NCBI RefSeq assembly: GCF_963675165.1
Contig: NC_087380.1
Coordinates: 1,479,803-1,543,802, forward strand
DNA: 64,000 nucleotides
Reading direction: 5' to 3'
Origin: Halichondria panicea
Lineage: Eukaryota; Porifera; Demospongiae; Suberitida; Halichondriidae
A program made the position numbers and the translations under genes. A model generated the notes under the pieces. That model was given only the letters and a program-made list of their open reading frames with translations, did not search any database and was not told where the DNA came from. Below, in pieces: positions 1 through 30,663 of the stretch; the first letter of the stretch is position 1; every line of letters starts with the position of its first letter.

Positions 1-246
1 AGGGTATACACGAATTTGTAGATCGGCCTGAACACTGAGGTCCACTCTGTGTGCATGTAGGGACATTGACGAGGAACAATTCTCATTAGATCTTATTCTC
101 TTAATCGTGATGACTTCCATGAGCCTCTTAAAGTCACCTTTGTCTACACGGAATCCATTAGGTCGCCTCTCTCTGGCTACAGTCTCAACAGCTGCTTGTA
201 TCTTGGGTTGGATGCGAGCTTTAACGTCCTCTTCAGGGTCAGACAT
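1..246 (-). CDS. Orphan array gene, type B copy 1 (partial, cut by window edge)
   Basis: The frame opens at an ATG (MSDPEEDVKARIQ) and stays open to the window edge, so only about 82 N-terminal residues are visible. It matches the complete type B gene at 8178-8801 in the N-terminal helical motif (KARIQPK...), the ITIKRIRSNENC stretch and the VDLSVQAD strand. The part that would hold the glycine-zipper lies outside the window. No known family is recognised. Its order next to A1 and C1 repeats elsewhere in the array. Confidence reflects clear paralogy but unknown function. Confidence 0.6.
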   Translation of the reverse strand, partial: MSDPEEDVKARIQPKIQAAVETVARERRPNGFRVDKGDFKRLMEVITIKRIRSNENCSSSMSLHAHRVDLSVQADLQIRVYP

Positions 247-613: not shown

Positions 614-1288
614 TCATACACTAGCGGGTCTAATCCTAGTAACATCACAAGAACTTACAGGGTCAACTACGACAACACAACTAGCTAAATTGTTTGCTTC
701 GTCATAGCTGAATTCAGGAAGTTGAGCCAGCACTTCTTGAGCCAATATTGTCGTTGCATGTCTAGACAGCCTGTGCCGATGCACACGTATTGGGAAATTC
801 CCTTGAACAGAAACTTTAACTCGATAGTTACAATAGTTCTTCCCTTGTGCATGCTCCAATATTGCCTCAGGGGGGTGAACTTCTCTATCAAACTTCTGCT
901 CTTCTTTCTGACCTTTCTTGATATGAATGCCAGCCTTCGCAGCAAATGGACTGACAAGTTTTAGAAGCTTGACAAGGCCACCATTAGCACCCATGTCTAC
1001 ATCAATTTGGTCGACATGTTTGATTTGTCGTGTTGGGTGGTGGGCAAACGTGTGTCCTTCCAACAAGTGATTGGCATCTACCACTTGTGACTCAGGAACA
1101 GTACACTCAGCTTCCAGTTCAACCGTGATCGTTATAATTTCCTTCATCTGCTGTTTGTCTCTTATATTTACATGGGCATAATTAGGATAGTGACCACGAC
1201 TCAACGTTTCCAAGGCAGCCAACACCTTGGTTCAGGCCTTTGCCTTGAGGTCAACTGTCGCCCTCTTTGGTTTTAGAGCCGTGGCCAT
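614..1288 (-). pseudogene. Orphan array gene, type A copy 1, with early in-frame stop
   Basis: The homologous start is the ATG at 1288 (MATALKPKRATVDLKAKA). Codon 19 is TGA (1234-1232), where copy A3 has TGG, and about 206 codons then run open to the stop at 614. The downstream part has the type A layout: ALETLSRGHYPN helix, a His-rich middle (HTFAHHPTRQIKHVDQID), KKGQKEEQKFDREVHPPEAIL, then the beta-rich VKVSVQGNFPIRV and EVLAQLPEFSYDEANN motifs. No ATG serves as an obvious later start. It may be a recent pseudogene, a read-through, or a one-base assembly error. The sequence is almost identical to A3 (10948-11607), including the upstream flank. Function unknown. Confidence 0.6.
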
Positions 1289-1392
1289 TGCCGGTGGAGA
1301 ACGACCTGCTTGTATTGTAAAACACTGCATGCATTATAACACTGCATGCATGTGTACATTGTGTGCTTGTTTACATAATCATTGGTGACACG

Positions 1393-1820: not shown

Positions 1821-2628
1821 TTAGTCAAGGCTATAAATCCCACGACGCTCAGTTTCCACTCGGCATGGTAACTCGATAATAGCAATACCTCTTGAATCAT
1901 CCCACCCTTCGAGCATACTCAGCACATAGCGAGCAGAAACAATCTTCATATGGCCATTCATTTTCACAGAGTCATTCAATTTCGCAATATCATTCGATTT
2001 CAACGAGTCGTTCGATTTCGCAATGTCATTCGATTTCAACGAATCATTAGATTTCGAAGGGTCTTTCGAAGAGGCCAACACATTAATCCATGTCCAGTTG
2101 CTGAATTTAATGTCACAGCAAATTTTTAGAGAGACCTCAAACTTACAGGCAAAGACTTCGTGCCCTGTCTCACGGCGTAGTGTTGACCTAGGGGGGAGGG
2201 GCTTACTACTCATGGCATGCTCATTCTTACGTACAGAAGCACTGTCATTATTAGCACCAATTGTTACAGCCCCATTGGTTGAACCTTCAGCAGCATCGCT
2301 CACCGGCTCTTTTTTGATGTCTAATCCAGTGGAATTGATGTCTAATCCAGTACTGCGATCACCTACAACTTGAAACATAAATGCTAGCCCGTTCCTTTCT
2401 TCGTAAGTCTTTGAAGGAAGGAATGTTTTTTGTTGGCATTCAACAAGCTTAATAGATAGACTCTTGAAGAAATCTTCTTTTCCTGATACGTAATAGTAAT
2501 TAACCTTCACCACCAACACGTTTCAGAGCCACTTTCAGCAAGGAGTGAATTTTAGCCTCCATTAGTGAGTAAATTTCAGCCTCACCCACAGTTGGCCCCA
2601 GAGACTTGCCTGTGTCTATACCAGCCAT
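1821..2628 (-). pseudogene. Orphan array gene, type C copy 1, frame-disrupted near the 5' end
   Basis: An ATG at 2628 opens MAGIDTGKSLGPTVGEAE and a helical segment ending KVALKRVGGEG, which then meets a stop. The rest of the type C protein (YYYVSGKEDFFKSL to the stop at 1821, ~225 codons) continues in another frame from about 2510, so one small indel separates them; an assembly error is possible. The body has FLPSKTYEERNG, a variable linker, PPRSTLRRETG, CKFEVSLK and the terminal LEGWDDSRGIAIIEL motif shared with C2, C3 and D copies. A Ser-Asn-Asp repeat sits in the C-terminal half. Function unknown. Confidence 0.55.
1970..2058 (-). repeat. In-gene tandem repeat coding for SNDSLKSNDIAK-like units
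   Basis: A 36-bp unit is repeated about 2.5 times in the reading frame of type C copy 1, encoding alternating KSNDSL and KSNDIA hexads. It lies between the CKFEVSL strand and the GWDDSRG motif. The other type C copies have a single short spacer there (e.g. GNLVDSVNVNG in C2), so this is a local expansion. Confidence 0.8.
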
Positions 2629-2941: not shown

Positions 2942-3319
2942 AATAACTTCTGAAAATTAATAGCTTAGCTTTCAAATTTCTGTAGTAAGTTTACAGATAT
3001 CCATTGTTGAGATATCACTGAAAACTATATATTCTACTATTTTCTATCGTTTTGATGACATCACAAGCTGCTAACCACAAACCAATGACACTTTAATTAA
3101 CCACGTAAGTGGGCGTACAATAACTGTACGCCTACTCTTATGGTTTGTGGCTTGCAGCTGCTGATGTCATCAAAACAGTAAAAAATATGTAGTTTTTCAG
3201 TGTTATCTCAGCAATGGAATAAGCATAGGGGATGTTCTTGGTATCAAAATGTAGCCCATTTATCTGTAAACTTACTACAGAAATTTGAAAGCTAAGCTAT
3301 TAATTTTTCACAAGTTATT
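2942..3319. mobile_element. Foldback / MITE-like inverted repeat (~380 bp)
   Basis: Long imperfect arms face each other. Left: AATAACTTCTGAAAATTAAT and TTTCTGTAGTAAGTTTACAG. Right: the complementary CTGTAAACTTACTACAGAAA and ATTAATTTTTCACAAGTTATT-type end. Complementarity continues inward to TGATGTCATCAAAAC near the centre. There is no coding capacity. It fills most of the gap between C1 and B2. Confidence 0.8.
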
Positions 3320-4201: not shown

Positions 4202-4527
4202 TTAGAGTTCGTGCTGGTATCGTTCAATGTCTGGTCCCTTGTCGCCACTTGGGCACTGGGTGGGTGCGGTCAGTACACAACGACAAATGTTATGAGTCTT
4301 GTCACTTGAATACTCTTCAAACTTTGCAAAACCTTCAGAAATGGGAACGAAAATTAAATCCCCTCTGTACTTAGTGCCAATCATTTTAATACCAGAAACA
4401 GCACCTACTCCAACACCTGCCCCTGCAACAAGACCACTTATACCACCGACAATCCCACCAATAAATCCACCTATGATGGTCCCCACCGTTGGATGCGAGC
4501 TTTAACATCCTCTTCAGGATCAGACAT
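4202..4527 (-). pseudogene. Orphan array gene, type B copy 2, internally deleted
   Basis: The first 13 codons (MSDPEEDVKARIQ, ATG at 4527) join directly to the glycine-zipper and C-terminal coding region, which stays open in a different frame (GTIIGGFIGGIVGGISGL to ERYQHEL, stop at 4202). Compared with B3, about 280 bp covering most of the helical module and the first part of the zipper are missing. The rest, including 3' flank, is nearly identical to 8040-8460. A deleted copy of B3-like sequence is the simplest reading. Confidence 0.7.
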
Positions 4528-4592: not shown

Positions 4593-5462
4593 CAGTCTGC
4601 CCTAAGACCCCCAGACAAGACAGGAAATATACATACCACAAGTATTTTAATGGTATTCATAAGGATGACATCACAAAAACATTGTTTTAATGAAATTCAT
4701 AATTATATAATGAGATTCATAATGATGACACCCTACAACTCTGTCAGATTGTAGTGAAGGGTGATTTTTTCTGAATTTCCAAAGCTCATAACACAGACCA
4801 TTTACTGAACTAGAACCTGTTACTAGGAGATAAATTAGTTCAATATGGAATGTATTGCCTCAGCAAGTTTGGACTGGATTGAGATAGTGTGAACAGCTTG
4901 CGCAAACTCTCAAAGTTAGCTCATTCTGAATAATCTCTGTGGTTGGTGGAACTCATGGCTGCATATCTCCAGATGTAAATGGAACCAGTGACTGCCTAAA
5001 GTATCAACTAGTGCATCTGATGCATGTGCATGCTTAGCAGCAAACTAGAAGGCTTGAAGTCATTCATGAAGTGTTCTATGCTATTGCCAAGTTGTGTATT
5101 TATTTCAAAGTTTGTGTAACTGCTTTGCAAACACCATTCATTTGTATGGCATTTACCTTGAATATGTTGTAATTTAGATCCTTTTGATTTGATCAACCAA
5201 TTTTTAGCTTGCTACGTTGATGGTGAACAGCTTGCTCAAACTCTCGAACTTTCCGCAATCGTTTTCACAACTTAATGCCAGTTTGACCCAAATTCATATT
5301 TTAAAGTGTTTATCGTATGTTAAACTGTCTTCTTATTACATATTTCAACTTAGATAGCTCTACTTTTATCAGAAACAAAGAAAAACTGTTTTCATTAATA
5401 TATTCATGAGGCAACTTGTAGCACTTCCTGTCTTACAACATTTGGGGTCTTAGGGCAGACTG
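4593..5462. mobile_element. DNA-transposon-like element with terminal inverted repeats (870 bp)
   Basis: The left end CAGTCTGCCCTAAGACCCC and right end GGGGTCTTAGGGCAGACTG are inverted copies. Just inside them, GACAAGACAGGAA faces TTCCTGTCTTAC. A possible 3-bp duplication ATA flanks both ends. No long ORF supports a transposase, so it looks non-autonomous. It explains most of the gap between B2 and C2. Confidence 0.75.
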
Positions 5463-5666
5463 ATACAACTATAGCTAGTATAAAACCGTGAATAGATTTC
5501 CTAGTTTGTTTGCTAGCTAACTGTCACATGACATGGCATAACAGTACATAATTATATTCATTGATCAGTGCAAGGAATGTCAACCACCATCAGATATACA
5601 TAGCCACAAGCCACACGCACGCATACAAACAATAAATAACCACACGCACACAGTGTTACAATCGTA

Positions 5667-5874
5667 TACAGTATTACTAGAATGTTTTGCGAGCATCAAA
5701 CATATATGCGAGCTTAGATCAATTCGCAACAATCGCAAAACCTACATTATTACTAGTAAATACATACGATCGTTGCCAGAACTCAATAGTTAGATCGCAA
5801 AAGGTCAATTTTTTCTGCTGATTTGGCTCATTCACAAAGGTTTTTCATCCGCAAAATATTCTAGTAATACGGTA
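5667..5874. mobile_element. MITE family M1, copy 2
   Basis: Ends are TACAGTATTACTAGAATG and the inverted ATATTCTAGTAATACGGTA. The interior matches the copy at 3480-3699. Its right end overlaps the left end of the M2 element that follows. Confidence 0.8.
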
Positions 5875-6056
5875 GCGGGTGTATTTCGAGGGTAGAAATT
5901 TTCGCGGAAATGCCTTCAGAAAGGTTTTTGCGGATTTAGTGGAATAGTGGCTGCATGCATACGATATTAAATGTGTGGTTATAAATGTGCGCGGTACATG
6001 CCTAATCCGCGAAAATCACGAACATTTATACCCTCGAAATATACCCGCTATACGGT
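5868..6056. mobile_element. MITE family M2, abutting M1
   Basis: Left arm TACGGTAGCGGGTGTATTTC, then GAGGGTAGAAATTTTCGCGG, faces right arm CCGCGAAAATCACGAAC followed by ATACCCGCTATACGGTA. Shorter or diverged relatives occur at about 20519-20650 and 38626-38768. M1 and M2 share a TACCGTA-type terminus, and here one starts where the other stops. Confidence 0.75.
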
Positions 6057-6120
6057 ACTAGCTGGTGAATGTAATAGCACAATTAATAACTTATAGAGTG
6101 AACTAAGACAACACAACTAC

Positions 6121-6882
6121 CTATATAGTTTTCCTCCATATGCTCTCGCTTTTTATTTTACCGAACTCGTCAAGTTCATAAGTCTTATTACGATCACCTT
6201 CCACTATGGTATAAAACGTGATTGTAGCAGCTTTGTCTTCTTTATTCCACCCATTGAGCTTACTAAGCACATGTTGACCAGAAACAGTCTTTATATAGCC
6301 ATTCACGTTCACAGAGTCAACTAAATTTCCAGGGTCAATCGAAGAGCTCCCCCACAACCAGAAGTACAGCCAATGCAAATTTCTCCACTTGGTGAAACGA
6401 ACGGTACAATCATTTCTTAAAGATACTTTAAATGTACAGGAATAGGTGTAATATCCTGTCTCACGACGTAGTGATGACTTAGCAGGGAGGGGCTGACTAC
6501 GTGTGACACACTCACTACTCGACTTTATTTGTTTAGAAGCACTGATATTAGTACTAGCTGCCATCACACACCCGTTAGTTGAGCCTTCAGCGGAACCACT
6601 CATTTGCTGTTCATTGCTGTCTGATCCAGTGTGATCACCTCCAACTTGAAATTTAGTGTCAAGGTTGTTTGTTTCTTCGTAAATCTTTGAAGGAATGAAA
6701 TCTATTTCTTCTTTTTTAATAAACTTTCGATCTAGGTTCTTAAAGAGCTTAGTTTTTTCGTTTTCTGATAAGAGAGAGTAACTTTCACCACCAGCACGTT
6801 CCAGAGCATTTTCCAGATCAGATAAAATTTCAGTATCACCCATAATCGGCATCAGTGCCGGGCATGTATCCTTACTAGCCAT
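6121..6882 (-). CDS. Orphan array protein, type C copy 2 (intact, ~253 aa)
   Basis: One exon with a clean ATG at 6882 (MASKDTCPALMPIMGDTE) in the conserved context AGCAGTATTATGGC, and a stop at 6121. Residues ~12-60 form the charged helical module (LENALERAGGESYSL, KTKLFKNLDRK) ending IDFIPSKIYEETNN. Residues ~65-120 are a Ser/Asn-rich linker. The C-terminal half has PLPAKSSLRRETG, CTFKVSLRNDCTVRF, a Trp-rich insert (WRNLHWLYFWLWG) and VLSKLNGWNKEDKAATITF. No signal peptide is seen. It is the best intact type C copy without a hydrophobic N-terminus. No known family is recognised. Confidence 0.65.
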   Translation of the reverse strand: MASKDTCPALMPIMGDTEILSDLENALERAGGESYSLLSENEKTKLFKNLDRKFIKKEEIDFIPSKIYEETNNLDTKFQVGGDHTGSDSNEQQMSGSAEGSTNGCVMAASTNISASKQIKSSSECVTRSQPLPAKSSLRRETGYYTYSCTFKVSLRNDCTVRFTKWRNLHWLYFWLWGSSSIDPGNLVDSVNVNGYIKTVSGQHVLSKLNGWNKEDKAATITFYTIVEGDRNKTYELDEFGKIKSESIWRKTI

Positions 6883-8177
6883 AATACTGCTTGATAGCTG
6901 CACTATAACGAGTTTTAGAAATGACAGTTGGCTTATGGGCTTGAAAACAATTGACAGATTAGCTAGCGATGACTAAGCAGTTCCCTAATAAGCACTGTAC
7001 TCACGTGAAGGAAGTATGAGACATGTGTGGAGGATGTAACTTCCACTCATGTACTATGAACATTGAAGCTAATCAGAGAACTAATTGCTCTAACACATGC
7101 AGCACATGCTCTAAACCAGTGACCGTGCAATTGGTGGTTTCCTGCAGGGTTTGCAAAATAAATAGTACACAGACCTAGGAACAAAACAATTTACTTTCAC
7201 TATTCACTCTCATATTGTTTACAATGATGTACTGATGTACATTATGCGTATGTACCATAGATATCTGTGGGTGTATTGGACTTGTACTACCCTCGTGCAA
7301 TTCTATGTATTCCCTCGAATACATAGAACTGTACTAGGGTAAACAAATCCAATACACCCACAGATATCCATCAGAGGAGGTACGACAGGAAGGAGCAATT
7401 AAGCTTGATTGAGCACTTTAATTACATTCCGTTCACGTGTAGGCCTATAGGTTTGTTAATGCTGAGCCAGCTAATTAAGTGTTTTAATTAGCCTAATTGC
7501 TCCTAGATGCATGCATGATCAATTCTAGGTGCTAGCTTTCATGGACTAACTAAAACTAGCAAGATTACATAGTTGTATCTATTGCACAGTACATATGTAC
7601 ATAATTATAGTTACACATGTACAGAGAGCAGACATCTTAGGCTTAGGAATGTCACATGAATGATGAGGCGTGGCCATGCAACCCTCCTCTGGTTAAAGCC
7701 CTTGTGGTCACAGTTATGTACATGTACTTCGTAATCTCTTTGGTCTAGGTCATAGAAGCGACAGCAACTGATATAATTATCACTACGATATAAAAAATAA
7801 CACATGAGTTATTACGGTTATACATTTCATAGGTGATTTATATCAACCAATAAAGATCGAGAACAGTGTTGTGCTTTGTCAAACAAAGTAAACTCTCACT
7901 ACAACAGTTGATCTGCAAACAAAATTATACTGTACACATGCACCACCAAAGCCAGTCCTGGGAATAACACTAGCATAACAATAGCCTACGGTAATAGCTA
8001 TTGAAAGGCTAGCATAAATGCTAGACTAGCGAGAGTCAACTATGACAACATAACTAGCTATATAATATATATATAGTTCACTTCCACACGATTTAATAGC
8101 ACTTGCTGAGCTATCCAAATACAAAACGAAACATACAAGCATGCATGTGAGAACGAATTCAACATTTAGAGTTCGTG
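6883..8177. other. Intergenic spacer with two inverted-repeat elements
   Basis: No gene is supported. A 109-bp foldback at 7260-7368 (arms GATATCTGTGGGTGTATTGGA and complement) is followed by a MITE-like stretch from about 7372 (GGAGGTACGACAGGAAGGAG) that resembles the element at 16495-16640 and the GGAGGTACGAC start at ~20645. The segment 7850-8170 resembles 9985-10130 and the flank of B2. Confidence 0.6.
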
Positions 8178-8801
8178 CTAGTATCGTTCAATGTCTGGTC
8201 CCTTGTCGCCACTTGGGCACTGGGTGGGTGCGGTCAGTACACAGCGACAAATGTTATGAGTCTTGTCACTTGAATACTCTTCAAACTTTGCAAAAACTTC
8301 AGAAATGGGAACGAAAATTAAATCCTCTCTGTACTTAGTGCCAATCATTTTAATACCAGAAACAGCACCTACTCCAACACCTGCCCCTGCAAAAAGACCA
8401 CTTATACCACCGACAATCCCACCAATAAATCCACCTATGATGGTCCCCGCCACAGGCACAATCGATCCTATCGCAGCCCCCGTAGCCACCCCTCCAGTGG
8501 TACCTCCGACAGCACCAACAGCTGCACCAGCAACACCTCCAATAATTACTTCTGGTGGATATACACCAATTTCGAAATTAGCTTGAACACTGAGATCCAC
8601 TTTGTGTGCGTGTGGGGACATTGACGAGCAACAGTTCTCATTAGATCTTATCCTTTCAATCGTGATGATTTCCATGAACTTCTCAAAGTCAACTGTGTTT
8701 ATGCGGAATCCATTAGGATGTCTCTCTCTTGCAGCTGTCTCTAGAGCTGCTAGTATCTTGGGTTGAATGCGAGCTTTAATGTCTTCTTTGGAGTCAAACA
8801 T
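8178..8801 (-). CDS. Orphan array protein, type B copy 3, glycine-zipper insertion (207 aa)
   Basis: Single exon from ATG 8801 (MFDSKEDIKARIQPK) to the stop at 8178. Residues ~8-50 are the array's helical module (ILAALETAARERHPNG). Residues ~68-82 (VDLSVQANFEIGVYPP) match the type A strand VKVSVQGNFPIRV. Residues ~84-150 are a long Gly/Ala/Val/Ile run with GxxxG spacing (IIGGFIGGIVGGISG), the pattern of membrane-inserting glycine-zippers. Residues ~163-190 (ISEVFAKFEEYSSDKTHNIC) resume the type A motif EVLAQLPEFSYDEANN. The zipper therefore looks like an insertion into the C-terminal module. No signal peptide is seen. A membrane association is inference; the function is unknown. Confidence 0.65.
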   Translation of the reverse strand: MFDSKEDIKARIQPKILAALETAARERHPNGFRINTVDFEKFMEIITIERIRSNENCCSSMSPHAHKVDLSVQANFEIGVYPPEVIIGGVAGAAVGAVGGTTGGVATGAAIGSIVPVAGTIIGGFIGGIVGGISGLFAGAGVGVGAVSGIKMIGTKYREDLIFVPISEVFAKFEEYSSDKTHNICRCVLTAPTQCPSGDKGPDIERY

Positions 8802-9016: not shown

Positions 9017-9691
9017 TTAATCACACACTGGTCTAATCCTAGTACTATTGCAAGAACATATAGAGTCAACTACGACAACACAACTAGCTAAATTGTTTGC
9101 TTCGTCACAGCTGAATTCAGGAAGCTGAGCCAGCACTTCTTGAGCTAATATTGTCGTTACATGTCTAGACAACATGTTCTGATACACTCGTATCGAGAAA
9201 TTCCCTTGAACAGAAATTTTAACTTGATAGTTACAATAGTTCTTCCCTTGTACGTGTTTCAATATTGCCTCAGGGGGGTGAACTTCTCTATCAAACTTCT
9301 GCTCTTCTTTCTGACCTTTCTTGATATGAATACCAGCCTTTGCAGCGAGTGGACTCAAAAGCTTTAAAAGCTTGATGAGGCTGCCATTAGCAGTAACATC
9401 GACATCAATATGGTCGATATGTTCGATTTTTCGTGTTGGGTGGTGGGCAAACTTGTGTCCTTCGGATAAGTGATTGATATCTACAACTTGTAACTCAGGA
9501 AAAGTACACTCATCTACCAGCTCAACCGTGATCATCATGATCTTCTCCAGCAGTCGTTTGTCACTTCTATTTACATGGGCATTAGGATAGTGACCACGAC
9601 TCAATGTTTCCAAGGCAGCTTCCACTTTGATCAAAGCCTTTGCCTTGAGGTCAACTTCCCTCTTTTGTGGTAGAGCCGTGGCCATTGCCAT
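9017..9691 (-). CDS. Orphan array protein, type A copy 2 (intact, 224 aa)
   Basis: Single exon from ATG 9691 (MAMATALPQKREVDLKAK) to the stop at 9017; it is the only intact type A copy. The helical module ALETLSRGHYPNAHVNRSD is followed by a VDECTFPELQVVD turn, a His-rich segment (GHKFAHHPTRKIEHIDHID), a Leu/Lys amphipathic stretch (SLIKLLKLLSPLAAKAGIHI) and a charged KKGQKEEQKFDREV. The beta-rich end contains VKISVQGNFSIRVYQ, EVLAQLPEFSCDEANN and CVVVVD. There is no signal peptide or TM segment. It lies ~215 bp upstream of B3's start on the same strand. No recognised family. Confidence 0.65.
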   Translation of the reverse strand: MAMATALPQKREVDLKAKALIKVEAALETLSRGHYPNAHVNRSDKRLLEKIMMITVELVDECTFPELQVVDINHLSEGHKFAHHPTRKIEHIDHIDVDVTANGSLIKLLKLLSPLAAKAGIHIKKGQKEEQKFDREVHPPEAILKHVQGKNYCNYQVKISVQGNFSIRVYQNMLSRHVTTILAQEVLAQLPEFSCDEANNLASCVVVVDSICSCNSTRIRPVCD

Positions 9692-10947: not shown

Positions 10948-11607
10948 CTAATCATACACTGGTCTAATCCTAGTACTATCGCAAGAACATATAGAGTCAA
11001 CTACGACAACACAACTAGCTAAATTGTTTGCTTCGTCACAGCTGAATTCAGGAAGCCAGCACTTCTTGAGCTAATATTGTCGTTGCATGTCTAGACAGCC
11101 AGTGCTGATGCACACGTATTGGGAAATTCCCTTAAACAGAAACTTTAACTCGATAGTTGCAATAGTTCTTCCCTTGTGCGTGTTCCAATATTGCCTCAGG
11201 GGGTGAACTTCTCTATTCAACTTTTGCTCTTCTTTCTGACCTTTCTTGATATGAATGCCGGCCTTCGCAGCAAATGGACTGACAAGTTTTAGAAGCTTGA
11301 CAAGGCCACCATTAGCACTACATCAATTTGGTCGACATGTTCAATTTTTCGTGTTGGGTGGTGGGCAAACTTGTGTCCTTCCAACAAGTGATTGGCATCT
11401 ACCACTTGTGACTCAGGAACAGTACACTCAGCTTCCAGTTTAACCGTGATCGTTATAATTTCCTTCAGCTGCTGTTTGTCTCTTATATTTACATGGGCAT
11501 AATTAGGATAGTGACCACGACTCAACGTTTCCAAGGCAGCCAACACCTTGGTCCAGGCCTTTGCCTTGAGGTCCTGTAGCCCTCTTTGGTTTTAGAGCCG
11601 TGGCCAT
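10948..11607 (-). pseudogene. Orphan array gene, type A copy 3, frame-disrupted
   Basis: The ATG at 11607 and stop at 10948 correspond to those of A1 and A2, but the frame changes several times: near the 5' end (deletion around 11570), near 11316 (lost bases after the HVDQIDV segment) and again toward the 3' end. About 86 codons are continuous (LAALETLSRGHYPNYAHVN to HVDQID). It is almost identical in sequence to A1. Where A1 has a TGA at codon 19, this copy has TGG. Confidence 0.7.
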
Positions 11608-12230: not shown

Positions 12231-12926
12231 CTATACGCTACTAACTATATCCCACATAGTTTTCGCTTCGCATTCTAAATAGATTACAGCAGTGCCTCTT
12301 GATTTGTCCCACCCTTTAAGGTTACTAAGCACACTGTGAGCAGTAAGTTCTTTCGAATAGCTCCAGATTAACGACGAATGACTGAATGTAACGTCACAGT
12401 TAACGTTTACAGACACCTCAAATTTACAGTCAAGGAGAGTGGATCCTGTCATATGCTTTAGCATCGTCTTAGGGGGGAGGTATTGACCATGTGTGACACA
12501 CTCCTCACCCGACTTACTTCGTGAACATTCCTTGGCACCATTGTGAACTCCCGCATTGACCACTGACAATGCTTTCACGTCTCCATTGGCTGAATGTGCA
12601 GCAATACGTTTCACTTGCTTTTCATTGCTGACTGTTTTTATGGACTCACGCTGATACTCAATGTCTAGGTTGTTCACTTTGACACTTTGAAACGAAGGAA
12701 CGAATTCGATTTCTCGGCATCCAATCGTCTTACGATGTAGACTCTTAAAGAAATTGTCCTTTCCTGCTGATGTTACATGGTAATCTTTGCCACCAGCATA
12801 TTTCAGAGCAGCTTCCATTAAAGAGGTAAATTTAGTATCACACGATTCATTTCCGAAGGCAAAAAAGGGCCCTGGGTAAATTATAGCCATAGCACTGGCC
12901 AAAACAATAGCCATGATAATACCCAT
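12231..12926 (-). CDS. Orphan array protein, type C copy 3, with hydrophobic N-terminus (231 aa)
   Basis: Intact single exon from ATG 12926 to the stop at 12231. Unlike C1 and C2 it begins with a ~25-residue hydrophobic segment (MGIIMAIVLASAMAIIYPGP) that could be a signal peptide or anchor. The type C body follows: LMEAALKYAGGKDYHV, DNFFKSLHRKTIGCREIEF, a linker rich in Ser/Asn/Lys, PPKTMLKHMTG, CKFEVSVNVNCDVTF and VLSNLKGWDKSRGTAVIYL. Other in-frame ATGs lie within the hydrophobic stretch, so the start could be later. No recognised family. Confidence 0.6.
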   Translation of the reverse strand: MGIIMAIVLASAMAIIYPGPFFAFGNESCDTKFTSLMEAALKYAGGKDYHVTSAGKDNFFKSLHRKTIGCREIEFVPSFQSVKVNNLDIEYQRESIKTVSNEKQVKRIAAHSANGDVKALSVVNAGVHNGAKECSRSKSGEECVTHGQYLPPKTMLKHMTGSTLLDCKFEVSVNVNCDVTFSHSSLIWSYSKELTAHSVLSNLKGWDKSRGTAVIYLECEAKTMWDIVSSV

Positions 12927-13243: not shown

Positions 13244-13902
13244 TTATGCCTTGACAACAACAATCTCATTCTGAGTAGCTTCCACTTTGTATCCAACCTC
13301 GACCACAGCAATACCTTTTAATTTGTCCCATCCTTGGAGCAAACTAAGCACAGCAAGAGCAGGAACACTTTTCACCGCCGTTCTTCCCAACCCTTTCTTC
13401 ACATAGAAACCAATTTGCTGGCTTGGAACACGAAGAGATACCTCAGCTTTACAGACATAAGTACTGTATCCTTTCTGTCGGCGTAGCTTTGCCTTACCGG
13501 GAATGGCCTGACTACACTCGACATAGTCACCACTCGACTTTTTATTCATAAATCCACTAGCTTTAGCAGATAGTTTCCAAAGGTCCATGACAGTGAGAAA
13601 ACTAGATTCAGAGCCACCTTTCACTTGTACTTCATGGCCTGTTGATCCTGTGCGAATAGCTGGTGCCTTTTCAACATGGAAATCAGTGTCAGTTTCATTC
13701 TTCTGGTTGGCATCCTTAATCGAACGGAAACACTTATGTTCATGTTCGAGTTCCTTGATGGATATGTTTTCAAAGAATAGCTCTTTCTGTGACTTCTCGA
13801 TACAGTAATTTTCACCTAGATCGGTACGTACGGTATCCAGAGCAAGTTTCAGAAAGGAGAGAACTCAGCATCAATATCAACAGGTTTGACCTTACTAGCC
13901 AT
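13244..13902 (-). pseudogene. Orphan array gene, type D copy 1 (one frame break near the start)
   Basis: ATG at 13902 gives MASKVKPVDIDAEFSPF and then a stop. One base out of phase, from about 13860, the protein continues without interruption to the stop at 13244 (~205 codons): LKLALDTVRTDLGENYCIEK, a Lys/Glu-rich region, GFMNKKSSGDYVECSQ, IPGKAKLRRQKGYSTYVCKA, EVSLRVPSQQIGFYVKKG and LLQGWDKLKGIAVVEVGYKV. A single indel or an assembly error would account for the break. Type D differs from C in a longer charged middle and the QQIGFYVKKG strand. Confidence 0.5.
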
Positions 13903-23600: not shown

Positions 23601-25891
23601 CAAGGTCAGTCATCACCTGCAATGATTGTAACTACACAGTCACACACAACAAGTATCAGGAGTATTATAATTATAATAGAGAGAACGTAGGCATACTGTG
23701 TATCAGATGTATGCAGAGAGTAACGTAACTTCCTGTATCTGTCATGGGCTTGGAATTTGCCCACTGACCAATCCAAGCGTGGGTGATGTTATCTATCACT
23801 CTCCGCGTACATCTGACGCACAGTATGCCTACTTCAATACTCTCTCTCTATTATAATTATAGTCTTGCAGGTACTAGCTAAATGAATACTGACTGGATGG
23901 TACAAGCTAAGGATACGAGTGAGTATACATGCATGTACCTGATGTTTTGAGGCAGCAAAGAAAGAAATGGGCGTACGGGTGAGTATACACGTACCTGATG
24001 TCTTGAGTGTGGTAGTGATGTAGTGAGAAGGCCAGTGAGGTTGACCACACCCCCTGAGTGGGCGGAGTCACCAGTGGCTGCTAGAGCACCCTCAATAGCC
24101 CTGTCCATGATCACAGGGTACCTGAAAGGAGTGATTTATATGAAGTAATTTTTTCACAGAGAACAACAAAACATTTTCCTAATTTGAACGAATAATTATT
24201 GCATGGGTTGTCCTCACACACCAAACATTTCACATGGAAAATTCATCATAGACTATAACTCTTATTAGTTGCAGTTACCCCGTGCAATAGAGTATATTGA
24301 CTCCCCACACACACTTACTTGGCATCCATTGACTGCACTAAAGGAGCTACTGACAAGCGCACAGTCTCCTCCGTTAAGACGTCCTGACCTTTGACCTCCA
24401 GAAACCACTCAAAGAGAGCCCTGTAATAACATAAATTAATAAATTATTAACTCGCTACTATTTTTGATAATTACTTGAGGAAGTCGCTGACTGTTTCTTC
24501 CTCCAATCGCATCGAGTCCAAAATGCCGATAATCATCGTCAAGTATCCATCGTCGTGGTCACCATCGCCATGGAGACCCTCGCAGTGGGAGGCCAGTAGT
24601 GATGTCAGGAGAGATGAGAGGAATGGTGCTATGTAGTAAGACTGAGAGAGCTCAGCCAGCACAGGAACCAAGGAATGGCACTGGCCAAGATGCCTCACAG
24701 CCCTAAACGAGAAAATAATTAATTGCTGGACAACAGTTGATTATGTCAGAGTATAAATTATTAGGTTGGTGAGTTAATTGTGGCACCTTTTAGTGAGAGT
24801 CTTGATTTGCTGTGTGTGGCAGATCACTGCAATAGAGCTAACACCTTCAGTGAGTAGCTCTGGACCCAAGTGCTGTCAGTAGGAGAACGACAATAATTAT
24901 AGTTAATTATTAGAGAATGAAAATATGGGACCTAACTATTAAGTAATATAAGTGCATGGGAAATTCATTATAATGAAACCAGTGCAATAATTTATCAAGT
25001 TAACTGGTAACTATAATTATATATCGGTACCTTAGCAATAACCTCCAGCAATGAATGACACAGTGACGTGTCCAGGGTGGATCGAGCAGCCAACTGACTG
25101 ACCACCATGTAAGTTCCAGCTCTGTAGTCTGCATTCAATGATTTCAGACCCTTCACCAGATAGGGGAGCAGACGGGACAACAACTCTTCAGTGATGGTAC
25201 CCGTGTCCTCCATCACTGCTAACACTGTGGATGTATACAGGCCCAGCAGGGGGTGGTTTGTGGTAGAACTTGAGGTACGAAGCGTCTTGAGTGATTTATT
25301 TACCATTTCACAGAGGAACACTAGAAACGAGGGGACTGAGATGCAGTGCTGTTTTATAGTGAGCTTTGATAGGGGAGAGCCAGCCTTCTGTGATGGACGC
25401 AACCAATGCCAGGGGGAGGTGGGGTCCTTGATTGGGAGCAGCTGGAGAACTCGAGCGAATAGATTTGTCTCGTGATAAGGGAGGATGCATTCCATGAGAG
25501 AATCGACATTGAATGAATTAATTCGGAACGAACGAATAAGCCACTCGAGACATTTCTGAGCAGGCTTGAGCAGAAAGTATGGGGAAAGTTTCTGGAGAAA
25601 CGTCGCTATTATATTGTCGATTTCTTCTAGAATTTCTTTCGTCTGCACTGTACGCTCAAAGTCCTTGCAGCTGTCTTGGAAAAGAGTGGACTCAAACTGT
25701 TCAAAGCTTTGATCAATACTGATGAGTTCTTCTAGTCCATTGATACCCAGGGAGTGAATGGAGTCGATGTCGATATCCGCGGCGACATCTCGGTCGAACA
25801 GCAGAGAGGGACGCTTCTTGGAGATCACCTGACGGAGGGATGGCTGACCAGGAATGGCAAGCTTTTGTAACTGTTTAGCCAATGAAGACAT
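17680..25891 (-). CDS. HEATR1: HEATR1 / UTP10 homologue, N-terminal ~850-880 residues only
   Basis: UTP10 is a HEAT-repeat scaffold of the t-UTP complex, needed for Pol I transcription and 18S rRNA processing in the nucleolus. Exon 1 (25891-25031, ATG at 25891: MSSLAKQLQKLAIPGQPSL) carries the family signature: GLEELISIDQSFEQFESTLF and LSPYFLLKPAQKCLEWLIR. Further exons with consistent phase: 24872-24787, 24702-24475, 24420-24319, 24121-23995, 23616-23506, 22865-22761, 22475-22157, 20491-20367, 19893-19714, 19291-19141, 18869-18724, and tentatively 17785-17680 (LQARALAVAAAYVRSLGGG). That is 847 codons, or ~882 with the last exon. The family is ~2,100 residues, and the C-terminal BP28CT part is absent from the window. 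Large introns hold transposon-like repeats. Confidence 0.85.
18110..18640. mobile_element. TIR element (531 bp) in a HEATR1 intron
   Basis: CATAGATTGAATAGGGAGAG at the left is inverted exactly at the right (CTCTCCCTATTCAATCTATG), and complementarity continues imperfectly (GGATTTGAAACGGAAGT against ACTTTCGTTTCCAATCC). There is no transposase ORF. Confidence 0.8.
18865..19005. repeat. Minisatellite (~62 bp x 2-3) duplicating a HEATR1 3' splice site
   Basis: The unit TTGCTGTGTGGGCGGTRA...CACACTTYAAYACAACACTGCA is tandemly repeated. On the minus strand each unit carries CCGCCCACACAG/CAAT, the acceptor used before HEATR1 exon 12 (18869). Confidence 0.85.
19085..19130. mobile_element. MITE family M1, left-end fragment
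   Basis: TACCGTATTACTAGAATGTT followed by a diverged GATCAATTTGC, without a right end; in HEATR1 just downstream (minus strand) of exon 11. Confidence 0.6.
19511..19532. repeat. G homopolymer (~22 nt)
   Basis: An uninterrupted G run in HEATR1 intron 10; its length is likely unreliable in any assembly. Confidence 0.9.
20492..22156. other. HEATR1 intron 8, repeat-bearing
   Basis: No gene is seen. It contains an M2-related fragment (~20519-20650), an element start with GGAGGTACGACACGAC (~20645), a direct duplication of a GTTCAATRAGATAAAATAC block (~21145-21200), and an inverted pair AGGCCTTACTTTTTCTT / AAGAAAAAGTAAGGCCT spanning ~21733-21841. Confidence 0.5.
22858..23240. repeat. Minisatellite (~72 bp x 5) duplicating a HEATR1 3' splice site and exon start
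   Basis: The unit contains ACAGCAGGGGAGGTCTGGAG, a G-run, then TTAGTGTCAATACATGGATA and a C-run. On the minus strand each copy supplies a pyrimidine tract, the CTCCAG acceptor and ACCTCCCCTGCTGTG, the first bases of HEATR1 exon 7 (start 22865). G/C homopolymer lengths vary between copies. Confidence 0.9.
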
Positions 25892-25948
25892 TGTAGTAGA
25901 TATATAGCCAGAATTGGTATTATATCTTGGAAATTCAGCTTTTTCGAC

Positions 25949-25954
25949 CACGTG
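25949..25954. promoter_or_regulatory. CACGTG E-box upstream of HEATR1
   Basis: A perfect palindromic E-box 58 bp upstream of the HEATR1 ATG. E(CG)-boxes of this type, bound by MYC/MAX-class bHLH-Zip factors, are known to mark ribosome-biogenesis promoters in holozoans. The same site occurs near the starts of PWP1 and the UBF-like gene here. Confidence 0.6.
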
Positions 25955-26199: not shown

Positions 26200-29100
26200 T
26201 CACACTGATTCTTCGAGCAGTGTCTCTCTGAGCTTAGAAAACCGCATCAAGCGATATGTTCGACTTGTGTGTTGCCTCAATTCAACTGCATTAACTTGAG
26301 AAATCTCCAAGTCATTTTCCAAAGTCTCTGAAATATTGACTTGCTTGTTTGGTTTTTTGAATCTCTTCTTTAGTAGTTCCAAATTCTTATCAATACACAC
26401 CTTGTAGAGTCTTTTATATATTAGCATACAAATGACTAGCACAAATATCAGAAATGCTGATCCAGTTGACAAGTTATGCAACACAAAAAAAGAGTAGTAA
26501 TCCCACATTTCCAACTTTGCCACTTTTACATGATAGACACCGACATAATATAGAAGTAAATTGACAATGAATGACACTTCCAGTAAATCCAACCATCGGC
26601 TATTGTAGATTCCACCCGACACACTTATAATGCTCAGTAGTAGAGTGCATACTGTGCATATAGCCAAAAGACTGAAATGAAAGCCCTCATCTAAAGCAAA
26701 TGTGAGCATGAGCACCCATCTGAGCATGTTACAGAGGCTGACCCAATATCGACTCTCAGGCTTGAAAGCAGTATGGTAGGTATTAACGGAGGCTGTGATA
26801 TAGTACCGACTGAATAACTTTGAGATGGTCTCACTTTTGTAAAGCCACTGAGAGAGAAAGGTCACAGTTGTACCCAATATCATAATCAAGCCAAGAATAA
26901 CTGCTATAATCACCAAGACAGTATGACCACCTGTTCCAAATGGTACAGTCCCGTCTCGTAACCATACAGTGCTAGTATTGTTAGATGGATACTCCAAGTG
27001 AGCAGGGGTTACGATATCGATAATATTTCGAATAAACTTGCTGTACGAGAACAATATGACAGTCTCGAACACTGCTACAGGATCATGTATTTTAGCAAAG
27101 AATTTCGAAGCCTTGATTGAGTAATGACAAATGATACTAATGACCAGGACAATAGCACACAAGTATAGAGGGAACACAAACTGCCAGGAGATGTATTGAA
27201 GTTGATTTAGGCCATCGTAGAAACAAATATTCATCCCAAAATCCAAATTAACCCAGCCGATAAATATGTCAAGGAACTTGATGATGTCGTCTTCATTGTG
27301 AACTCCAAACCGAGTGTTTTTAGCACTTAGTATGTTAGCATAGAATAAAATTCCGTGTACTGTGCCACTTGAGACTGTGAACTGAACAAGAGAAAGGAAA
27401 GCAATAAAGAGAATACCCAGAACAAACATTGCGATTATGACAACAAATGCATAGTTGTCGCTACAGTCAGCACATTTCATAGAGTGCAATTTTAGACTTG
27501 TATTGCCTTTGCATGCTCCACAAAGTAGACCTCCATGATTTTCCCTACATTGTGCATCTGGATTTTTCAAGCTTACAGCCACTGTTTCAATCCCATCTGG
27601 ATTTTGACAGTAGTCAGGTGGACAGTAAGGATAGAGAATCAGACCTAGATAGGTGGAGTTCGGATTAGACGAGTTTTGATAGTGGGCTCCAATCCAGGGA
27701 TTTTTTAGGGGAGACTTGTTTATTTTACCAGTGTCAACGTCGCAGGAAGTGGTGTAGGTCAAAAGTCTATTGTCGCATTTGCAAGGATTACTTGCTGGTT
27801 CGAATCCATTGTCGCAATCTGCAAATGTGAGATTTAATGATAGGCAATAAATATCATCGGTAGATCTGCAGTAACCATTTGCAGTGATTGCTATTTCCTC
27901 AAACGGATGAGGTGAGAATACCTGAAAAGTTACCTCAGAACAATTATCAGTAACCATTTGAGACAACATAGAAATGTAATGACTTGTGATGATACTGGGA
28001 TCATCTAAAAGGCCCCTAACCTCACGTTTGGCCGTTCCACTACTAATGTTCCCATCAAAAGCAAAAGCAGCCATCATAAGTTTAACCTTTTCTCCTCTTT
28101 TATGTGTTCTACTGATTTTTCTTTTGCTATAGTTACGCATCTCATTTTCGCAAAAGTACAGTCGATAAAACTCTGAGTCTAGCAATGGAACTGTGTTGTT
28201 GGGGGCAGTCATATTTATATATGTATAGTTGTATAATTGGACATTTTCAAGTACATCAGCTTGCACATCACTGTAAAGCAAACTCCCGGTACCATTATTA
28301 CGAACAAAGTTTCCTGAAAATGTTATCTGATTGCTTGCTTCATCGACGAATTGAAGAAAACAAGGTAGCTGTAATGAAAATGTATTGTAGCCACAAAATA
28401 AGTTGAATTTGGATATGTACATTACACCGCCATGTTTCTCAGCAAAATTCCGAACAAAAGAGACATGTGCGTATGGTAGTAAAGTTATGAAAGAATCATC
28501 TTGAAGATAGCACACTCCACCGAGTCTAGCTGAATTTCCCTCAAAAGTTCCATTGCCTCTGACAATAATACTACTACTTGCTTGAGCAAATATAACTCCT
28601 CCATCTGCGTATGGTCTGGTGTTTCCTTTGAACGTAAAGTTGGCGTAAAGGAGCAGTTGACACTGATCTAAGTGGATAGCACTGTATGTTGAGGTTCCAT
28701 CAGCATTGTTATTTGAGACATCCAAATTGTCCACAAATTTTAATCTCGAGGAGCGTGCACTAATCACACGAGAATTGCCATCAAATCTGTTTTCCTCAGA
28801 AAAAAACATGTCGCTAGCAATAGCTTCTAAGACAAAGCTGTTCTTGTTTCTGATAAACTCAGAATTTTTTATATAGAAAATACTAGTGTGCAATTTAAAT
28901 ACAGCATTGAGATCTGTCATCAATGTGCCACAGTTTTCAGCTTCCAAATTGAAAAGGGTTCTTCTCACACAATCTGTTAGTTGAGATGGCAGATTTGTTG
29001 GTTGAGATGGCAGATTTGTCGGTGGACTGTTATTTTGGCACAAAACGTGTTCACTCATCCGGACAATTGAGTTGATAGCGTTACAGGAAGACACACCAGC

Positions 29101-30063
29101 AGTATTGCTATTGAATTCGATGTGCTCAGTGACATTCAAAATACTACAGGAGATGTGTATACCGGCCACAGTTTTAAATTCCATGATATTATTTGAGGTG
29201 GCAGTGTTCAAAGAAAAATTACTCGACCCGGCAATTATTGCTTTTGAGTTAAACAAAGACAACACTCCATAAATACCCACGCTATTCTGTTTAAAGTCAC
29301 TGATTCCAATAATTTGAAATGACTCCGCTTCATTGATTCTTATGATAGCCGTAGGGCTAGTATTGTTGAATACCATAAAATATCCGTCTATAGAAATATT
29401 ACACCTCCCTGCCAGTAAGACAGCTGACATTGTTCGTTCATATGAGGGTGTAAGGCAAATCGGAGTTACATTGTTTGGAGGAGAAACATTTCCCAAGAGA
29501 TTGTCTGAAAAAGTGGTGGTCTCTGTGAAATTCACTTGAGAATTTTGAAGCAACATAATTACTGAGTTGTTCATGTGCGAAATCTCGTTGTTTGTCACTA
29601 ACAAGTTTGAAAATTCAATGTCCGTGCTATCTCTTATGTTCACTGCAGTGGATGTACTGCTCATGATAACAATGTCACTGAATGTTCCATACTGCACATG
29701 ACTGACTAGCAGCCCAGGATTAACTGAATTGCCACAAGAAACAAACGAAAGGCCTTCAATTCTCAATCCATAAATATTCTCAAATGTAAGTCCAAATTGA
29801 TAGCCACAGTCTATCGTTACATTCTCACCACTAAACGAGATGTTATCAAGGCCGAAAATATAGAAATTTGTCTCCAAAATGTGGTTCCCTGGTAGTAAAA
29901 TGAACTTGGTGTGAGAGGTGTGGTTCTGCTTTGCACAGTCTGTCAGGGAGACACAAGTTGAACCGTTGGTAGCATTGTGATCTGGTGCAACACGAATCTC
30001 CTCAGCAAAACAAGAGTAGCTAGCAATCACAATAAAACAGAGTATTCCAATTCTTAGCTTCAT
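26200..30063 (-). CDS. Beta-helix, multi-pass membrane receptor-like protein 1 (1287 aa, intron-less)
   Basis: ATG 30063 is chosen because it starts a signal peptide (MKLRIGILCFIVIASYSCFA); the frame extends upstream only without ATG. Residues ~25-700 are an N-glycosylation-rich ectodomain with repeated short strands (FSGENVTIDCGYQFGLTF, GNGTFEGNSARLGGVCYL), typical of right-handed parallel beta-helices. A Cys-rich juxtamembrane part (CRENHGGLLCGACKG then LKLHSMKCADC) precedes about seven hydrophobic segments, including VVIIAMFVLGILFIAFLSLV, VFPLYLCAIVLVISIICHYS and LLAICTVCTLLLSIISVSGG. A basic cytoplasmic tail ends in RETLLEESV. Such proteins are often left uncharacterised in early animals. 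Ligand and signalling partner are unknown. It is the tandem twin of 30664-34488. Confidence 0.8.
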   Translation of the reverse strand: MKLRIGILCFIVIASYSCFAEEIRVAPDHNATNGSTCVSLTDCAKQNHTSHTKFILLPGNHILETNFYIFGLDNISFSGENVTIDCGYQFGLTFENIYGLRIEGLSFVSCGNSVNPGLLVSHVQYGTFSDIVIMSSTSTAVNIRDSTDIEFSNLLVTNNEISHMNNSVIMLLQNSQVNFTETTTFSDNLLGNVSPPNNVTPICLTPSYERTMSAVLLAGRCNISIDGYFMVFNNTSPTAIIRINEAESFQIIGISDFKQNSVGIYGVLSLFNSKAIIAGSSNFSLNTATSNNIMEFKTVAGIHISCSILNVTEHIEFNSNTAGVSSCNAINSIVRMSEHVLCQNNSPPTNLPSQPTNLPSQLTDCVRRTLFNLEAENCGTLMTDLNAVFKLHTSIFYIKNSEFIRNKNSFVLEAIASDMFFSEENRFDGNSRVISARSSRLKFVDNLDVSNNNADGTSTYSAIHLDQCQLLLYANFTFKGNTRPYADGGVIFAQASSSIIVRGNGTFEGNSARLGGVCYLQDDSFITLLPYAHVSFVRNFAEKHGGVMYISKFNLFCGYNTFSLQLPCFLQFVDEASNQITFSGNFVRNNGTGSLLYSDVQADVLENVQLYNYTYINMTAPNNTVPLLDSEFYRLYFCENEMRNYSKRKISRTHKRGEKVKLMMAAFAFDGNISSGTAKREVRGLLDDPSIITSHYISMLSQMVTDNCSEVTFQVFSPHPFEEIAITANGYCRSTDDIYCLSLNLTFADCDNGFEPASNPCKCDNRLLTYTTSCDVDTGKINKSPLKNPWIGAHYQNSSNPNSTYLGLILYPYCPPDYCQNPDGIETVAVSLKNPDAQCRENHGGLLCGACKGNTSLKLHSMKCADCSDNYAFVVIIAMFVLGILFIAFLSLVQFTVSSGTVHGILFYANILSAKNTRFGVHNEDDIIKFLDIFIGWVNLDFGMNICFYDGLNQLQYISWQFVFPLYLCAIVLVISIICHYSIKASKFFAKIHDPVAVFETVILFSYSKFIRNIIDIVTPAHLEYPSNNTSTVWLRDGTVPFGTGGHTVLVIIAVILGLIMILGTTVTFLSQWLYKSETISKLFSRYYITASVNTYHTAFKPESRYWVSLCNMLRWVLMLTFALDEGFHFSLLAICTVCTLLLSIISVSGGIYNSRWLDLLEVSFIVNLLLYYVGVYHVKVAKLEMWDYYSFFVLHNLSTGSAFLIFVLVICMLIYKRLYKVCIDKNLELLKKRFKKPNKQVNISETLENDLEISQVNAVELRQHTSRTYRLMRFSKLRETLLEESV

Positions 30064-30663
30064 TGCTTGCAAAAGTTGAACAGTGTAATACTTTACGACA
30101 ATGTGAGGTAAACTTAAAGATACATCATCTGATAACAAGCAGTCTACTATAAATGACACTGCCTATTGTGTGAGCATACTATATGGTTTACATGACTCTC
30201 CCTAACAGGAACCATTGCATTGTATTGTTACAATACTGCTGCCAGCTGTGTCCATGTGTATTGTCACAATGGTCTTATACAGGTAACTGAAAAGCGCACA
30301 ACATTGGGCCTGGTTGTGCGCGCGGACACTAGAAGGCAATGGTCATCTCCTGTGCTAGCCTTTATCTAAGGCCGAGTTTTCGCTTTTATAACGGTTAGGT
30401 TATAAAAGCGAAACTCGGTCCGGGATCACGTGAGTGCTCAGTACAACGCCGCCCATATGTGTTTCGTTATCAGCCTCGGCCTGGAATAGGGCGCCGCCAT
30501 TGTAGTCTTAAGAATTAGCTGCCCTCTTTGGAGACTACAATGACGCTGATAAGCTTTTCTCAGAGCTGGTACATTCCTATCAACACCATAAATTATATAA
30601 TTATTACATACACTTCAAAACTGTAAACCTTTGTAAAAAAACTGTTTAATTGGTTCATAGTTC
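30064..30663. other. Spacer between the receptor twins, with a copied HEATR1-promoter segment
   Basis: The part to ~30350 matches the upstream flank of the second receptor (34560-34856), including CTCCCTAACAGGAACCATTG. At 30373-30415 a hairpin (TTTCGCTTTTATAAC and complement) is followed by CACGTGAGTGCTCAGTACAA, which matches the HEATR1 upstream region at 25949-25990. No gene is seen. Confidence 0.7.

Follow-up and report, generated by a model that had tools for sequence, protein, structure and literature searches.

A cluster of short genes in the sponge Halichondria panicea raises the question of whether a small soluble domain can acquire, or lose, a segment that seeks the membrane. The stretch of DNA analysed here (the window, 64,000 nucleotides, C4:1479803-1543802 of the organism's own assembly, which comprises 131 Mb in 39 contigs and was the genome searched) carries a gene, B3, in which a long glycine-rich segment separates two motifs that lie close together in the adjoining type A gene. 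An earlier note on this DNA had proposed that a membrane-seeking hairpin was placed in a loop of an otherwise soluble domain. The features on which the argument rests are listed in Table 1.

Table 1. B3, its parts and the related genes in the window (aa, amino acids; H and E, helices and strands modelled by AlphaFold2).
Feature	Position in window	Strand	Remarks
B3, type B gene	8178..8801	minus	207 aa, single open frame
B3 N-terminal two-helix part, residues 5-45	8667..8789	minus	common to A and D; H5-27, H36-45
Motif 1, B3 residues 65-82	8556..8609	minus	strands preceding insert; common to A and D; E65-73, E77-81
Glycine-zipper insert, B3 residues 85-150	8352..8549	minus	two glycine ladders (96-112, 124-139) around SIVPVAG turn
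Motif 2, B3 residues 167-192	8226..8303	minus	helix and last strand; common to A and D; H166-170, E184-192
Type A gene adjoining B3	9017..9691	minus	224 aa; same module, 6-residue loop, without zipper
Type A copy	614..1291	minus	open frame 614-1225; single in-frame TGA close to N-terminus
Broken type A copy	10951..11585	minus	several stops
Another type B gene, N-terminal part	1..246	minus	continues beyond window edge
Type B fragment	4202..4486	minus	second half of zipper and motif 2; 92% identity to B3 over genome-search match
Type C gene (probable relative)	6121..6882	minus	corresponding loop 31 residues, aromatic
Type C gene (probable relative)	12231..12926	minus	corresponding loop 7 residues
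Type C frame (probable relative)	1821..2519	minus	corresponding loop 49 residues, overlaps 36-nt tandem repeat at 1955-2069
Type C, C-terminal part only (probable relative)	13244..13624	minus	corresponding loop 9 residues

A search of the genome with B3 returned 16 matches at E <= 0.01, all of them on C4 and 14 of the 16 within 1459-1492 kb. These were read as seven type B genes, four type D genes, two type B fragments and three type A N-terminal parts; the outlying members are one type B at 1157 kb and one type D at 6432 kb. B3 is 66, 62, 53, 54 and 49% identical to five other type B rows. The corresponding searches with type A and type C gave eight matches (including broken copies and one D gene) and six matches respectively. 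The type D genes lie outside the window, beyond the view of the earlier note; the three longer copies encode 284-307 aa, and the type combines an A-like linker with a B-like zipper. Near the distant copy D6432 (L015:4372-5289, insert of 112 residues) an open frame at L015:1507-1887 matches the Death domain. Among the type C frames, that at 12231-12926 has a hydrophobic start, a possible signal peptide, and in this it differs from the frame at 6121-6882. B3 is read here as one of a family of small proteins that arose by tandem duplication, have a single alpha/beta domain as their basis and seem to lack a leader.

The A and B genes adjoin in three places, and one A+B stretch of ~2.1 kb has been copied as a unit at 91.5% identity. 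HEATR1 (UTP10) spans the whole A/B/C/D cluster (1459-1494 kb) and is encoded on the same strand: its residues 1-288 were found at 24995-25951 of the window (minus), residues 2078-2117 at C4:1445065-1445385 (minus; chain E 0.00062, stretch E 0.015), and BP28CT at C4:1447041-1447208 (minus). A recent segmental copy pairs C4:1473034-1475768 with 5463-8190 of the window (99.2% over an alignment of 2,735), carries a type C gene and touches the end of B3. Just upstream of the type B fragment lies an 870-bp element (4593-5462) with perfect 19-nt inverted ends, and a scan of the window allowing 2 mismatches gave no other copy of the end than these two. Smaller elements occupy 2953-3307 (perfect 47-nt inverted ends, with more inverted repeats inside) and 7257-7371 (nearly palindromic, arms of 29 nt and 25 nt). 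Further along are two similar large open frames of 1,319 and 1,274 aa (26200-30159 and 30664-34488), of which the former matches nothing in Pfam at E up to 0.01 and the latter has strongly hydrophobic stretches, and a single open frame at 47706-50066 that matches TPR, ankyrin and JmjC/Cupin_8.

The same two parts are encoded by B3 and the neighbouring A genes, the N-terminal one helical and the C-terminal one a beta/loop/alpha-beta module. The N-terminal match of the A and B profiles is clear (E 3.1e-10, 96.8%), and it is seen between two single sequences as well (E 1e-5 for the N-terminal part, 0.005 for motif 1). The comparison of whole A and B profiles left the C-terminal part unaligned, and this part was therefore tested separately. 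An insert-free B/D profile was made by joining the 18 residues before the insert to up to 38 residues after it in 10 of the 13 zipper-bearing stretches, omitting the near-copy B1479 and two fragments. With this profile, among the 1,103 regional frames of at least 40 aa, the three longer A frames scored E 2.7e-13, 3.2e-12 and 5.6e-12, followed by two A fragments (E 3.7e-5 and 4.8e-5); the best frame outside A, B and D reached E 0.22. Motif 1 reads AHKVDLSVQANFEIGVYP in B3 (residues 65-82) and NYQVKISVQGNFSIRVYQ in A, while motif 2 reads SEVFAKFEEYSSDKTHNIC in B3 (residues 167-185) and AQEVLAQLPEFSCDEANNLASC in A. When B3 was compared with two A genes both motifs gave P = 0.0005, the floor of 2,000 shuffles, so that the pairing of motifs claimed in the earlier note is borne out by the shuffles and by the profile alike. 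Across the B/D rows, shuffles gave P <= 0.013 for motif 1 against A in all ten and P <= 0.0030 for motif 2 in eight of the ten, motif 2 being weak in D1468 (P 0.0745, 0.0130) and D1476 (P 0.2479, 0.0565). The significant N-terminal and C-terminal matches, in the same order, indicate that A and B are members of the same family.

Type D bridges A and B, having an A-like linker as well as the zipper. Its relationship to B is certain (E 2.3e-39), and it matches A at E 1.4e-4 over A residues 12-171. The A-D profile alignment runs over 198 columns with its main gap at the zipper (E 4e-4, with a low hhalign probability of 34%). By one measure, the loop between the motifs is 6 residues long in all three A rows and 78 in B3; nine of the B/D rows fall within 73-81, and D6432 reaches 112. 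The spacing given in the earlier note, of ~15 residues between the motifs in A and a run of ~65 in B, holds in both respects, the run itself being 66 aa. The coordinates attached to that note, 8178 to 8801, cover all of B3, whereas the zipper occupies 8352-8549.

Type C is probably a fourth type of the family, with the C-terminal module in common. Profiles of whole type C alignments were negative (3.4% against A, 0.4% against B/D), no type C gene gave a significant match with the insert-free B/D profiles among the 1,103 frames, and the N-terminal part of type C did not match A/B/D, its score being reached in 8 of 150 shuffles. The C-terminal module of four C proteins, with loops cut by eye, aligned to that of A/B/D with an hhalign score of 27.7, where 150 column shuffles gave 16.1 at most. 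Since the loop at the corresponding site in these four proteins measures 31, 7, 49 and 9 residues, this one loop of the domain looks like a site that tolerates inserts.

The insert itself is a true glycine zipper, by a spacing that goes beyond composition. Residues 85-150 of B3 contain no D, E, K, R, H, N or Q, and 23 of the 66 are glycine. The GxxxG spacing that had been remarked upon in B3 stands, with 17 such pairs against 7.2 in shuffles. Over nine B/D rows, glycine pairs at a spacing of 4 number 142 where 65.8 are expected (z 13.5) and those at a spacing of 8 are likewise in excess (z 8.1), with spacings 1, 2, 3, 5, 6 and 7 close to the expected number or under it (z -4.6 to 0.4). Twelve glycines are invariant in these rows (96, 100, 103, 104, 108, 112, 124, 127, 128, 131, 135 and 139) and make up 8 i,i+4 pairs, where 2.8 would arise by chance (P 0.0002). 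In B and D the zipper is 65-75 residues long and consists of two charge-poor stretches with glycine at each fourth place; the two ladders flank the turn SIVPVAG in B3, which is S-V/I-V-P-V-A-G across B/D. Deviations are an arginine in the turn of B1463 and acidic residues at the end of the stretch in B1459. On the opposite strand (8263-8586, plus) a Pro/Ala/Thr-rich open frame of 107 aa runs antisense to the zipper and is probably a shadow of the glycine codons.

Structure prediction places the insert within a single domain. AlphaFold2, given seven rows from the window only, modelled B3 with a mean pLDDT of 56.9 and a pTM of 0.49 (means of the five models 56.9, 55.8, 52.8, 37.5 and 31.5). In the best model 92 of the 207 residues lie at pLDDT 70-90 and none above, and none of the 92 is in 85-159. 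The modelled elements are H5-27, H36-45, E47-53, E65-73 and E77-81 before the insert and E162-165, H166-170, E177-179 and E184-192 after it. Because the low-confidence residues 85-159 lie between these elements, the insert is placed as one loop of the predicted soluble alpha/beta domain. Together with the module common to A and B, this upholds the first half of the earlier proposal, that of a segment in a loop of a soluble domain. Residues 85-159 were modelled at pLDDT < 50 and without a helix, which read literally is the disorder that the earlier note had named as counting against it. As the insert was covered solely by B3 and one 97%-identical fragment (second half), the model says little either way about this region.

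Hydropathy was assessed on three scales (Kyte-Doolittle, a simplified Hessa-type scale and octanol). Kyte-Doolittle windows of at least 1.6 occur in all ten B/D rows, some of them outside the zipper in B1459 and D1468, and in none of the three A rows. On the Hessa-type scale the best 19-residue window of the ten zippers scores +0.8 to +3.1, compared with -4.6 to -1.5 for the TM controls (the two best windows of three neighbouring proteins) and with +7.8 for a HEATR1 exon and +8.7 and +9.6 for two A proteins as non-membrane controls. On this scale the zipper gives poor values in its first half (+3.2 to +4.9), and C1492 has an N-terminus as good as a zipper (+1.5). On both of these scales the zippers fall between the membrane spans of the neighbours and soluble sequence, and the insert of B3 is separated from A. 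The octanol scale does not separate them: the best window of B3 (-1.5) equals that of A1489 (-1.5) and is weaker than that of A1471 (-2.3), with TM controls at about -10 to -15. Given this mixed result the insert is rated a marginal membrane span.

Divergence between copies bears on how long the zipper has been present. In the flanks dN/dS is 0.39-0.92 in all six pairs that involve B3; over type B as a whole the six pairs that include B1157 give 0.61-1.2 and the remaining 15 give 0.37-0.66. Within the type B zipper it is 0 in one of 21 pairs and 0.49-1.32 in the other 20. Pairs of A genes give 0.26-0.48, pairs of D genes 0.48, 0.78 and 1.19, and pairs of C genes 0.85 (a nearly identical pair), 1.14 and 1.25. 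At codon positions 1+2 the zipper has diverged less than the flanks in B-D pairs (0.30 vs 0.445) with fourfold sites equal (0.490, 0.492), a sign that the zipper is constrained between the two types; in type B pairs the values are 0.265 for the zipper and 0.221 for the flanks, and within type B the zipper changes at the flank rate or faster. Taken together, these ratios and the codon-position divergence show purifying selection on most flanks and the maintenance of most of the genes as proteins, and the zipper likely dates back to the B-D split. With A having the linker and no zipper, B the zipper and no linker, and D both, an unrooted three-way tree would assign the change in the zipper to the branch of A and that in the linker to the branch of B. 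The word 'inserted', as used in the earlier note, therefore names one direction only; a loss in A fits as well as a gain in B/D. Type C, if related, is also without the zipper and is the sole pointer to the root.

We put the chances at about even that the insert is a conditional, membrane-seeking and self-associating hairpin. Under this reading B3 would be made as a soluble or loosely membrane-bound protein whose loop holds the two charge-poor stretches and their short turn. The hairpin would enter the membrane from one side, leaving both ends of the domain on the side of entry, and copies of B3 would pack together via their glycine faces; B3 may have a role in pore formation or membrane remodelling. 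The zipperless A, encoded beside B, may co-assemble as a non-inserting partner, a suggestion that comes from adjacency. As regards a membrane helical hairpin, the second half of the earlier proposal, the glycine spacing and lack of charge fit, and the marginal hydrophobicity and helix-free model do not. The pace at which the zipper changes within type B, the arginine of B1463 and the acidic residues of B1459 also count against the hairpin.

A rather unlikely alternative is that the hairpin is a permanent monotopic anchor, holding the domain on the ER or on lipid droplets in the manner of oleosin, with neither regulated insertion nor a pore. A hydrophobic stretch of ~70 residues with a proline turn and soluble parts on both sides would suit such an anchor, and PMC12687448 describes monotopic hairpins as a known form of lipid-droplet-bound proteins. 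A glycine at every fourth residue, however, seems more than an anchor would need, the hydrophobicity is marginal, and type A is otherwise alike and does without the hairpin. It is quite improbable that the insert has no dealings with the membrane and is a glycine-rich loop that is disordered or packs in a soluble form. The helix-free, low-confidence model of 85-159 and an octanol value no better than that of A would agree with this, but the model is weak evidence on so thin an alignment, and the strict spacing of 4, the absence of charge and the conservation between B and D speak against it.

We consider it distinctly unlikely that B3 is a pore-former of innate defence or self-recognition, in which B hairpins oligomerise into a channel and A serves as guard or partner. 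The copying of A+B as a unit is consistent with such a system, as is dN/dS above 1 in two of the three type C pairs, although these are the diverged pairs of 200 codons. The bacterial effector TelE depends on a glycine zipper to be toxic (PMC10434224), and in a family of CDI ionophores the one element that the members share is a putative glycine zipper (PMC11630599). Against it, no leader was seen in B3 and no toxin relative was found. Very doubtful, too, is a broader scheme in which the permissive loop receives cassettes, being short in A, tandem-repeat or aromatic in C and a membrane-inserting zipper in B and D, with A and B forming a two-part membrane-attack or gating system where A holds or gates B. 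Returning to the conditional hairpin, a single small domain may here exist in a membrane-active form too. If so, close paralogues would display stepwise how a soluble domain turns membrane-active via a single loop, with a natural zipperless control (A) encoded next door. How membrane-inserting proteins originate could then be tested directly, and the family may have a part in the defence or recognition of an early lineage of animals.

Searches of Pfam, the PDB and prokaryote, viral and plasmid sequences confirmed no relatives of the family. TelE and the CDI ionophores likewise have a glycine zipper as their likely membrane part, whereas B3 is eukaryotic, with no homology to them found, no leader seen and no immunity gene identified. 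Oleosin is absent from the four Pfam families matched by nine members at E up to 1. In oleosins a long hydrophobic hairpin with a proline turn forms the centre and is flanked by soluble ends, and B3 is similar in this respect; its insert, however, has a glycine ladder instead of the proline knot and sits inside a folded domain. B3 did not match Gly-zipper_YMGG (PF13441) at E up to 1, and among the nine members PF13441 matches two weakly (best E 0.0013), while TIGR03789 (8.9e-5) and NF053611 (0.0019) match one each and neither matches B3. Glycine-zipper membrane domains, reportedly the subject of Kim et al. 2005 (cited in PMC10434224), include Gly-zipper_YMGG and its kin, and resemble the insert in having GxxxG ladders on two charge-poor stretches. 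Those of the Gly-zipper_YMGG type are mostly bacterial envelope proteins, whereas here the zipper lies within a loop of a predicted eukaryotic alpha/beta domain.
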